Origin: Denitrovibrio acetiphilus DSM 12809
GTDB lineage: Bacteria > Chrysiogenota > Deferribacteres > Deferribacterales > Geovibrionaceae
DNA: 64,000 nt
Assembly: GCF_000025725.1 (NCBI RefSeq)
Contig: NC_013943.1
Span: forward strand, 1,302,001 to 1,366,000
Direction: 5' to 3'
Position 1 is the stretch's first letter; each line of letters begins with the position of its first letter. The notes beneath the pieces were generated by a model, which was not told the origin of the DNA, made no database searches, and saw nothing but the letters and a program-made list of their open reading frames with translations. The translations under genes were made by a program, and so were the position numbers. This document shows, in pieces, positions 34,831 to 38,890 of this stretch.

Positions 34831-36462
34831 TTATACACCTGCCATCATTGCGTCGATATCAGCTTTAACATCGCCTATAGCCTTGATGTCGAAGTTCTCT
34901 ACGAGCACTTTTGCAACATTAGGGCTAAGGAAAGCCGGAAGTGTTGGTCCGAGTCTTATGCCTTTAACACCGAGGTAGAGAAGGGCAAGCAGAACAGTAG
35001 CTGCTTTCTGCTCATACCATGCGATATCAAAAGATATAGGAAGTTCGTTTATATCTTCCAGACCGAATACTTCTTTAAGCTTAAGGGCTATTACTGCAAG
35101 TGAGTAACTGTCGTTACACTGACCTGCATCGAGGACTCTGGGGATACCGCCGATGTCGCCGAGTGCGAGTTTGTTATAGCGGTATTTAGCACATCCTGCT
35201 GTAAGTATTACGGCATCTTTCGGAAGCCCTTCGGCTACATCTGTAAAGTAGCTTCTCTCTTTGTGGCGTCCATCACAGCCAGCCATAACAACGAAACGCT
35301 TGATAGCTCCGGATTTAACAGCATCCACAACTTTGTCAGCAAGAGCCATTACCTGAGCGTGTGCGAAACCGCCAACTATTTTTCCCTCTTCTATCTGTGT
35401 CGGGGCAGGGCATTTTTTAGCCTGCTCAATGATAGCGGAGAAATTTTTCATCTTGCCTTCAGGTGCGTCTTCTATGTGAGTGAGCCCCGGGTAGCCTGCC
35501 ATGCCTGTTGTATACATTCTGTCTTTATAAGAATCTTTAACAGGAGTTATGCAGTTTGTTGTCATGAGGATTGGTCCGTTAAACGAATCAAACTCAGTAG
35601 ACTGTTTCCACCATGCATTACCGTAGTTTCCTACGAAATTATCATATTTTTTGAACTCAGGGTAGTAATGTGCAGGGAGCATTTCAGAGTGAGTATAAAC
35701 ATCAACGCCTGTTCCCTGTGTTTGCTCAAGGAGTTCTTTGAGGTCTTTCAGATCGTGACCGGAGATAAGTATGCCGGGATTTTTCCCTACACCGATATTA
35801 ACTTCTGTAATTTCAGGATTTCCATAGCTTTCTGTATTTGCCTTGTCCAGAAGAGCCATAGTTGTTACAGCAGTTTCACCAGTTTTCATAACCATAGCTA
35901 TCATATCTTCCACAGAGAGATCTTTAGTGGTGGAAGCGAGTGCTGTTATCATATGGTCGAAAACTACAGGGTCTTCGTAGCCGAGTACAGAAGCGTGGTC
36001 AGCGTATGCAGCCATGCCTTTGACACCGTATATTGCGAGTTCACGGAGAGAACGGACATCTTCATTTGCCTGTGACAGTACGCCGTGTGCAGCTCCGACA
36101 GACTCTGCTTCTTCGATGTTAGCAGGTCTCCAGTTTCCGCCTTCTACAGTGATATCTTTTCCTGCGAGAGATTTAAGCTCGTCACGGATATCGCATGCAG
36201 CAAGAATCAGTTTATAGATTTTGGCATTGTCAAAGTTTGCGTTTGTAATAGTGGCAAAGAGTGCCTGAGTGATAAATCTGCCATATTTGTTGTCTATAGC
36301 TCCATTTTCTCTGGCAGCCTCTGCATAAACAGAGAGACCTTTCAGCACGTATATAAGTGCATCTTGAAGATTTGCGCAGTCGTCTGTTTTTCCGCAGACT
36401 CCTCTGACTGTACAGCCTGTATTCTTAGCTGTTTCCTGACACTGATAACAGAACATACCCAT
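34831..36462 (-). CDS. hcp: Hybrid cluster protein (hydroxylamine reductase)
   Basis: A 543-residue Hcp with the N-terminal Cys motif C-x2-C-x8-C-x5-C (Cys5, 8, 17, 23), the class I form of obligate anaerobes. The remaining ligands of the hybrid cluster are in the C-terminal half (e.g. 'AGCDGRH' and 'AGCAKYRYN' and '[10 protein letters not shown]'). It is proposed to detoxify nitric oxide or hydroxylamine. I set the start at ATG 36462, with AGGAGG upstream, and not at an upstream in-frame codon at 36534. The FNR-type box at 36526-36539 should govern it. Confidence 0.93.
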
Positions 36463-36497
36463 ATGTAGTTCCTCCTTTTGTTTTCTTCTGATGAGGG

Positions 36498-36503
36498 ATA
36501 ATA
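36498..36503 (-). promoter_or_regulatory. -10 element of the hcp promoter
   Basis: TATTAT on the minus strand (five of six matches), lying so that a start near 36491 puts the FNR-type palindrome at about -41.5, the class II activator position. Confidence 0.55.
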
Positions 36504-36525
36504 CTGCATCCCCCGATAGCTTTAA

Positions 36526-36539
36526 TTGATTCAAATCAA
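36526..36539 (-). promoter_or_regulatory. FNR/CRP-family palindrome upstream of hcp
   Basis: TTGATTCAAATCAA is an exact match to the FNR half-site pattern TTGAT-N4-ATCAA. It is 64 bases before the hcp ATG. An FNR, DNR/NnrR or HcpR-type regulator of this superfamily is the likely ligand; none is encoded in the window. Confidence 0.75.
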
Positions 36540-36763: not shown

Positions 36764-36792
36764 AAAAAGGCAGCCTTTGAAGACTGCCTTTA
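36764..36792 (-). terminator. Terminator after chemoreceptor gene
   Basis: AAAGGCAG and CTGCCTTT form an 8-bp stem on the minus strand, followed by T-rich sequence; it is 6 bases past the chemoreceptor stop. Confidence 0.75.
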
Positions 36793-36798
36793 GTTGAG

Positions 36799-38763
36799 CT
36801 ATGTCTGGAATATTTCTACAGTTTGTTTCATGTTTTGTGCCTGATCACTCAGATCATTTATGGTGGCGGTGATCACTTTTAATGCTTCTGTACTCTGTGC
36901 CTGCCCCTGGCTAACTGCCTGAATGTTTTCATTCACACTGCTTATAGCCTGATTTTGCTGAGTAACAGCGGTTACGATCATATTATTTGAATGCACGACT
37001 TCATCCACAGCAGATACAATATCATTAAAGACATCTTCGGTTTCTTGAAGAGCCTGTACACCTTGTTCAACTTCATTTTCAGCCTGAGTCATATTTTTAG
37101 ATGCAGAGGCTGACTCTGTTTGCAGAGAATTTATTATCGAATCTATTTCGGATATTGCGCTTTGAGTTCTTTCTGCTAGTTTTCTGACCTCATCAGCTAC
37201 AACAGCAAAACCTCGTCCGGCGTCTCCGGCTCTTGCAGCTTCTATAGCGGCGTTGAGTGCCAGCAGGTTGGTTTGGTCTGCGATGTCGTTTATCACATTG
37301 AGGATATCACTGATTTCTGCTGATGATCCGGTGAGGTTTTCTATAGTGTTTGCAAGATCACCTGTAGATTTTCTGATAGCTTCAATGCTCTTGTTAGTTG
37401 CGTGCAGTTTTTCTTTTCCTGCTGCTGCCATACTGCTTGCATTGTCACTCTTAGACATGGCTATGTCGATGTTGTCCAGAACGTGTTCTGACGATGTTGC
37501 CATCTCTTCAAGTGCGCTGGCTATTGAGTGTACCTGCTGAGCCTGATCAAAAAAATTACTACTAAGCTGTTCGCTGGAGCTTGCGAGCTCTTCACTGCCC
37601 GAGGAAACGGTTTCCGACGCTTCTCTGATGTTTTCAGCTATGTTAGTAAGGTTCTGCCCCATTTTAAGCATAGACGCATATAACCCTGTGGGGTTTTTAG
37701 TATTTTTAGCTATAATGCGGAGGTTGCCTTCAGCTATATTGTCTGCGATCTTAGCCATCTCCTCCGGTTCACCTCCCAGAGGCTTTTTGACACGTCTGGT
37801 TATCAGCAGAGCAAAAAGGATAGATAATATAACACCTGTTACCGATACGGAATATGTTATGAGCTCAAGGTGTTTCCCCTGCCGGTAAGCCTTCTGATCC
37901 AGTATATTCTGTTTTTCGTTCAGGTCTGTATTGATCATCGCGACACTGTCCATTACCTGAGCATCAGTTTTTTTCATTACATAAGTATTCATGAGCTCAA
38001 TACTCTCAACCGCTTCAGAGATAGCATTAAATGTTTGAAGAAAGCTTTCTTTGGAGTGCTTGAAGTTGTTAAGTTGATCTTTGTTATAAGAATTGGTAAT
38101 GATTTTGTCGGCTTGCTTGATGAGTTGGTCGAGATTTACCGTTATTTCATCGTATGCCTGATCCTGCGAGTCAGTTGAATTTGTTTTGATAAAATCCAGA
38201 GCATAAAAACGTGCTCTCATTATACGTTCCTGCATTTTACCTATCAGGTATACGACATCTATATTACCAGTCTGATAGGAATATTCCATTATGTTGGTAA
38301 GCGAGGCACGCATATCGAGTCCATGTTTGTAAAATGAATCCATAGCAGCGTTACGGTCTTCTATCAGTTTTGATATTTCATCGAATGTTTCGGTGAATTT
38401 GCTGAGACCTTCGCTTAAGCTAAGCATGGTATCATTTTCTTCTGCTCCCTTGTGGGACATTGCAAGGTTAATAGAGGACATCATTCTGTTTTTGGATTCA
38501 TTATAGTTTTCCAGTGATTTTTCACTGTTGTCCATGAAGTAGTCTCGTGCGTAGAGACTGCTGAGGAGTTGTTCCGATCTGAGAGATGTCATTTCTTTTG
38601 AATCTTGCGATAGTTCTTTGATCTGTTCTATTCCGTCCAAGGACTTTTTCACAGAATAAACAGAGATTGTTGAGATGATAGCGAGGATGACTATAATTAT
38701 GGAAAATCCCATAGATATAGTTGTGCTTATCTTTAAAGCACTTCCGGAGGTTATTTTTTTCAT
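36799..38763 (-). CDS. Methyl-accepting chemotaxis protein
   Basis: A 654-residue chemoreceptor. Layout: first membrane helix (about residues 14-36), a long helical periplasmic sensor (to about 305), a second membrane helix, a HAMP domain, and the signalling coiled coil with the conserved hairpin tip ([46 protein letters not shown]). I set the start at ATG 38763 after AGGAGC. The sensor domain is not assigned. No CheW/CheA or flagellar gene is close. It is a single gene with its own terminator. Confidence 0.93.
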
Positions 38764-38890
38764 ACACCGCTCCTGATTATCAGGCAAATAATACCTAGTT
38801 GTTTTGTTAACTCTACATTAAAATTGTATTAATATGTAAAGTCCGAGGCAACAAAGATAACCAATGTTTTTTTAGTTTGCAATTGAAAAC

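Follow-up and report, generated by a model that had tools for sequence, protein, structure and literature searches.

The hybrid cluster protein gene (hcp) of Denitrovibrio acetiphilus is preceded by an FNR-type palindrome that is very likely the operator of HcpR, a DNR-like regulator that would activate hcp from a class II position in response to nitric oxide (NO) arising from nitrate or nitrite reduction. What we observe directly is the site with its class II geometry and conservation, the co-occurrence of site and HcpR, and the adjacency of hcpR and hcp in relatives; binding, activation and the NO signal are what we infer from the sequences. Here, we describe the promoter, compare it with those of related genomes, weigh the candidate regulators and follow the site to further genes, several of which are uncharacterized.

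Architecture and conservation of the hcp promoter

The stretch of DNA analysed, which we call the window, is 64 kb long and comprises positions 1302001-1366000 of the 3,222,077-base single-contig genome (Table 1). An initial annotation of the window had described a perfect FNR-type palindrome before hcp. The 14-mer is there: quoted at that time from the plus strand, it reads TTGATTTGAATCAA in the direction of hcp, and its symmetry is perfect in the half-sites, which are five bases each. The four middle bases are asymmetric, as is usual in FNR-type sites. The same annotation had placed the centre at −41.5, the class II position, and this also holds when TATTAT, 22 bases from the palindrome, is taken as −12 to −7 and the start is computed from it. 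A consensus promoter scan found no −35/−10 pair before hcp. The promoter therefore has the features of a class II activator-dependent promoter, namely an operator centred near −41.5 of the predicted start, a −10 box and no −35 box. Farther upstream, an inverted repeat that a terminator scan did not list is possibly the terminator of the preceding chemotaxis-like gene, in which case hcp would form its own unit.

Table 1 Features of the hcp locus, in window coordinates
Feature	Position	Strand	Basis or remark
hcp, hybrid cluster protein (hydroxylamine reductase family), 543 aa from ATG 36462	34831-36462	−	Prismane PF03063, 592 bits; NCBIfam hydroxylamine reductase, 845 bits
Ribosome-binding site AGGAGG, eight bases 5′ of the hcp ATG	36471-36476	−	
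Predicted transcription start (+1)	36491	−	Computed from the −10 box TATTAT
−10 hexamer TATTAT	36498-36503	−	Position relative to the site conserved
22-base spacer without a −35 hexamer (best match 3/6 at spacing 16-18)	36504-36525	−	
Putative FNR/DNR/HcpR-type operator (half-sites TTGAT and ATCAA), centre −41.5	36526-36539	−	Read from the sequence; similar place in relatives
Inverted repeat, then a T run on the minus strand (12-base arms, 92%)	36766-36791	−	Possible terminator of the upstream gene
Methyl-accepting-chemotaxis-like gene upstream of hcp	36799-38787	−	Named by eye

Within the genome, it is the placement of such sites, not their number, that exceeds chance. Across the window, the hcp site alone matches TTGATNNNNATCAA exactly, and the 3.22-Mb genome holds seven copies against one for the reversed control. 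For the degenerate motif TTGAYN4RTCAA, however, the genome holds 14 copies and the reversed control 13, and motif frequency alone was therefore dropped as evidence. Our own call of open reading frames (ORFs) of at least 60 aa places seven of the 14 copies between ORFs, and each of these seven is followed on one strand, at a distance of 21-22 bases, by a −10-like hexamer. Such a hexamer accompanies none of the seven copies inside ORFs (Fisher p = 0.0006) and none of the 13 control copies (p = 0.006), 12 of which lie inside ORFs and one between them. The seven intergenic sites are found at hcp; at narK, followed by narG; at an operon that begins with a DUF1858 and SBP_bac_6 gene and ends in YgbA_NO; at a gene for a 79-aa Cys-rich protein, where the site overlaps the last bases of the adjacent ORF; at a methyltransferase gene; at a DUF3124 gene; and at transposase-like pieces.

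To follow the site across relatives, we searched 59 genomes, D. acetiphilus included, for Prismane-family proteins and found a match in 43. L022 and L029 were dropped from the hcp set on reading their N-termini, which are of the CO-dehydrogenase type, and matches of about 1,680-1,720 bases in G013, G015, G018, G022 and G047 were dropped as that type by length alone; this left 43 hcp genes in 42 genomes, and the promoters of all of them were read. A site matching TTGAYN4RTCAA at 9/10 or better precedes 38 of the 43 genes, corresponding to 38 of the 42 genomes (D. acetiphilus included), and stands 68 to 114 bases 5′ of the ATG used. In shuffled hcp promoters, a 9/10 match arises in 5.9% and a 10/10 match in 0.2% of cases. 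The promoters below this threshold are those of G028, G034, G040 and G052 (each 7/10) and of the second copy in G005 (L104, 8/10), a genome with two hcp genes, only one of which has an HcpR-type site of at least 9/10. At position 5, the 38 sites have T in 15 cases and C in 23, giving the consensus TTGAYnnnnRTCAA. In genus g13 (Mucispirillum; for example, L037 and L040), the hcp site is TTGAYTTATRTCAT, with T rather than A as its last base, a change that may have gone along with one in the regulator. Twelve further genomes beyond these contain 13 hcp loci, of which 12 were scanned; eight of the 12 have a 10/10 site; the remainder are L238 (8/10), a Clostridiales locus (7/10), a Spirochaetaceae locus (6/10) and L228 of G062 (7/10 in the part left by the contig end).

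The distance from site to −10 box is conserved as well. Among 23 hand-chosen representatives of the 38 promoters with a site, 19 have a −10-like hexamer at a gap of 21-22, as do 12 of 14 when one promoter is taken per genus; the shuffle means are 5.3 and 2.9, respectively, and none of 5,000 shuffles reached the observed number in either case. The scan has a smaller second peak at gaps 11-12, in 11 of the 23 promoters. A −35 match of at least 4/6 occurs in none of the 23, compared with 16.7% in shuffles. The preserved −10 spacing together with the absence of good −35 boxes indicates a class II activator-dependent layout.

These comparisons bear on two other explanations of the palindrome. A chance match without a regulatory role might be suspected from the seven exact matches in the genome and from the seven degenerate matches that lie inside ORFs without a −10 box, but the site is conserved in 38 of 42 genomes and its distance to the −10 box is mostly fixed, which leaves chance exceedingly improbable. 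Repression is geometrically conceivable: a palindrome centred at −41.5 extends over the −35 region, which HcpR or a paralogue could cover until released on NO, and a predicted HcpR1 site over the start codon before Deferribacter nap has been interpreted as repressing in the cited part of PMC5701242. A repressor of this kind is nevertheless very unlikely at hcp, given that none of the 23 promoters offers a −35 box of at least 4/6 to be covered and that 19 of them hold the −10 spacing as activation needs.

HcpR as the candidate regulator

A search for FNR, DNR or HcpR genes, which the initial annotation had proposed, reveals six CRP/FNR-type helix-turn-helix (HTH) proteins above the Pfam cut-off in the D. 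acetiphilus genome. One of these is HcpR, whose gene (genome 85621-86277) lies not beside hcp but at the 3′ end of a nap cluster, behind a napA-like gene (best NCBIfam match NapA, under the model cut-off) and a NapH-like ferredoxin gene. In both named relatives that were read, Denitrovibrio sp. BM704 and Seleniivibrio woodruffii, hcpR likewise follows a NapH-like gene. No site of 8/10 or better turned up in the stretches scanned in front of the nap cluster and inside it, so we do not propose that HcpR regulates nap; more probably, hcpR is transcribed together with nap and does not control it.

The link between HcpR and the hcp site comes from relatives. An HcpR homologue is present in 37 of the 38 genomes with an hcp site and in none of the four with a siteless hcp (Fisher p = 4.5e-5, not corrected for kinship). 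The single exception, G042 (86% complete), has the hcp site and no HcpR match. G022, with an HcpR fragment, no other Prismane match and a genome that is 64% complete, stands outside this count, and no homologue was found in G014, G021, G023, G032, G033 and G038, which gave no hcp match. In 16 of the 37 genomes having both homologue and hcp site, hcpR adjoins hcp and is divergent from it (G003, G004, G006, G008, G012, G013, G015, G016, G019, G020, G026, G027, G031, G047, G048 and G049), and four named Desulfurellales/Desulfurellaceae loci also have divergent hcpR and hcp, with a 10/10 site between the genes. We identify this protein as HcpR, and as most likely the regulator, because it is the divergent neighbour of hcp in relatives and was not found where hcp lacks the site.

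Ranked by identity to D. acetiphilus HcpR, the 37 homologues comprise 27 at 46% or higher, the hcp-adjacent proteins of G015 and G016, and eight from genus g13, which includes Mucispirillum schaedleri, at 35-37%. The g13 values are no higher than that of the paralogue L005 (37%). The closest relative of the g13 protein is, however, that of G016 (45%), which is encoded next to hcp and groups with it in the tree (99/94), and we therefore counted the g13 protein as HcpR. Homologues from Desulfuromonas MAGs (46-47% identical where listed) share a 41-row group with HcpR (87/88, drawn open) in this tree, which was built without published HcpR1, DNR and FNR.

The best solved relative of HcpR is DNR of Pseudomonas aeruginosa (3dkw, 6.5e-21), and the PETFSR recognition helix is common to the two; in g13 HcpR it is PETISR (two proteins read). 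At helix position 181, all 11 aligned orthologues have E. D. acetiphilus has P-E at 180-181, and P at 180 is replaced by A or Q in G001, G002, the g4 genomes, G018 and G025.

As to the signal, FNR senses oxygen by means of a 4Fe-4S centre held by an N-terminal cysteine cluster. No cysteine is invariant across the 11 aligned HcpR orthologues, which argues against an FNR-type Fe-S oxygen sensor and favours a nitrosative reading. Sensing of NO through haem is known from the DNR and HcpR families and is our basis for expecting it in HcpR. A classical oxygen-sensing FNR could still be imagined to activate hcp under anaerobiosis, as the hcp site equals the FNR consensus TTGATnnnnATCAA as given in PMC1274295. 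Against the NCBIfam Fnr model (cut-off 228), however, HcpR scores only 50 bits, with 50 for the paralogue L003 and 48 for L005, and the hcp induction described in the cited part of PMC11896075 is by nitrate, in a comparison of fermentative with nitrate-reducing cultures. Together with the missing invariant cysteine, this makes an oxygen-sensing FNR a highly unlikely activator. The initial annotation had left the choice between an anaerobic and a nitrosative FNR-family regulator open; its prediction of activation by such a protein gains support, and the comparative evidence points to HcpR, with nitrosative sensing probably the better reading.

A closer competitor is another member of the same family. 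The strongest rivals are L003 and L005, which seem to be paralogues derived from HcpR: the tree places them within the HcpR group, next to the G016/Mucispirillum branch (89/85), with long branches and an uncertain position. Either of them, or with less likelihood L004, might activate hcp instead of, or along with, HcpR, as the recognition helix is of the E..SR type in all three (TPENLSR, TPENLSR and TPETLSR), DNR is the best solved relative of L003 too, and a 9/10 match to the site covers the TTG start codon of L003 (L066:7914) and that of L005. No promoter-like layout is visible at these two matches, though, and the other intergenic stretches scanned beside the three genes contain no 8/10 match. 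The three genes adjoin transporter-like genes rather than hcp, and the HcpR search, in which the paralogues themselves were not queries, gave a second match near 30-37% identity in few relatives. We thus consider activation of hcp by a paralogue unlikely. L005 itself (genome 2310203-2309526; L067:8527-9204, minus strand) has a cysteine-rich N-terminus, with several cysteines just before its sensor domain, and is divergent from a small DUF1858 gene, and it might be a redox or Fe-S sensor.

Regulation by HcpR can be set beside expression data from a relative. The initial annotation had suggested comparing hcp expression with nitrate, and a response of this kind is in print for Deferrivibrio metallireducens V6Fe1, in which RT-qPCR showed hcp mRNA 45-fold up with fumarate plus nitrate and 4.4-fold up with H2 plus nitrate, each relative to fumarate alone (PMC11896075); the cited part of that paper does not trace the response to HcpR. 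The promoter layout is the same in G017, which we take to be this organism: its hcp promoter has TTGACTTAAATCAA followed by TATAGT at a gap of 21. In the mechanism we propose, nitrate or nitrite reduction would give rise to NO, which HcpR would sense, probably via haem; an HcpR dimer would bind the palindrome at −41.5 and recruit RNA polymerase to a promoter with a −10 box but without a −35 box, and hcp would be switched on, its product removing NO.

Further genes with an HcpR-type site

The operon of DUF1858-SBP_bac_6, CobW-HypB-like GTPase, ABC ATPase and YgbA_NO (PF11756) genes (genome 2135671-2132471; L070:1471-4671, minus strand) carries a conserved HcpR-type site. Its solute-binding protein (SBP) has DUF1858 at the start instead of a signal peptide, and in all 27 genomes having the DUF1858-SBP gene a 10/10 site lies within 260 bases upstream. 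YgbA was found in 24 of the 59 genomes; in G003, G004, G006 and G008 it is distant from the operon and has its own 9/10 site. In G004, G006 and G008, what looked like an in-frame TGA within the solute-binding gene proved to be simply the gene end. In G017, G024 and G030, the operon is convergent with hcpR.

In D. acetiphilus, the gene convergent with hcpR is the one for the 79-aa Cys-rich protein (genome 86673-86437; L065:10435-10674, minus strand), which has its own HcpR-type site and whose product gave no significant family match. It occurs in 27 of the 59 genomes, exclusively those with an HcpR of at least 46% identity. Judged from the coordinates, it is a lone gene in 15 of the 27; a 10/10 site lies within 200 bases in 12 of these 15, among them G048, where the site was counted before a match without its N-terminus, and the others have 9/10 (G047 and G049) or 7/10 (G006). 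In the other 12 genomes, the gene lies inside the DUF1858-SBP operon, and the ten copies scanned in frame (L264 and L273, near contig ends, being left out) have 7/10 or 8/10, but G019 has 9/10.

An HcpR of at least 46% identity (a cut-off chosen after seeing the match list), the DUF1858-SBP gene and the 79-aa gene occur in an identical set of 27 of the 59 genomes, 24 of which also have YgbA. We tentatively propose that HcpR of Deferribacterota commands, in addition to hcp, an undescribed cytosolic nitrosative-stress machine consisting of the DUF1858-SBP protein, the CobW/HypB-like GTPase, the ABC ATPase, the 79-aa Cys-rich protein and usually YgbA. When NO has caused damage, such a machine may serve to repair iron or Fe-S centres or to replenish them. 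A literature search covering papers outside subscription listed no title that links the DUF1858-SBP/YgbA genes with HcpR.

Other sites in the genome show less of a pattern. The site before narK-narG (genome 2194745-2194758; L069:4746-4759) has TATAAT at a gap of 21. A narK match at E 1e-40 occurs in only five of the 59 genomes, and conserved regulation of narK was for that reason rejected; in the other four, the sites are 10/10 (G005 and G048), 9/10 (G047) and 8/10 (G025). With narK this patchy in relatives, the regulon may have acquired nar late. A further site (genome 3110464-3110477; L072:5465-5478), with TATAAA at a gap of 21, lies between an ATPase gene and transposase-like pieces, where no plausible target gene was seen. 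The site at a hemerythrin gene (2489420) lacks a good −10 box and is uncertain; the likely ATG follows it by about 64 bases.

Comparison with known HcpR systems

The hcp locus of D. acetiphilus closely resembles the HcpR (HcpR1) systems of Geobacter and Desulfuromonas, which, as described in the cited part of PMC1274295 (Rodionov et al. 2005), have a CRP/FNR protein whose recognition helix carries P or S at position 180 followed by E at 181, an FNR-like palindrome, hcp as the core target and nar genes in some regulons. Their consensus, TTGACnnnnGTCAA (PMC1274295), differs from the TTGAYnnnnRTCAA found here and from TTGAT/ATCAA at D. acetiphilus hcp, and the present regulon also differs in that hcpR lies within a nap cluster and that an extra gene set carries the site. 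DNR of P. aeruginosa shares the PETFSR helix and has a site similar to TTGATnnnnATCAA, but controls nir, nor and nos genes (PMC1274295, cited part), in contrast to hcp as the core target here. In Desulfovibrio desulfuricans, according to the cited part of PMC5701242, HcpR2 regulates hcp and HcpR1 is NO-sensitive; HcpR1 there differs in using a CRP-type TGTGA-N6-TCACA site. Several features expected of an HcpR regulon are found in the genomes studied here: hcpR and hcp are adjacent or co-occur, TTGAC/T-N4-G/ATCAA stands before hcp, and D. acetiphilus HcpR has P-E at 180-181.

The hcp site of D. acetiphilus thus joins the known HcpR regulon as a new and well-supported member. The HcpR family is known; as far as searched, which was among the listed titles of papers outside subscription, the regulon member is new for the phylum, with no report of an HcpR regulon in Deferribacteres, D. 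acetiphilus or M. schaedleri. Site and HcpR together are very probably a switch for NO protection in these nitrate-breathing bacteria, and the location of hcpR in the nap cluster may have its reason in that the sensor may be made once nitrate reduction is on. What began as a guess from one site becomes a testable regulon with a named regulator, in a phylum that includes nitrate ammonifiers, and uncharacterized genes carrying an HcpR-type site are pointed out wherever an HcpR of at least 46% identity was found.
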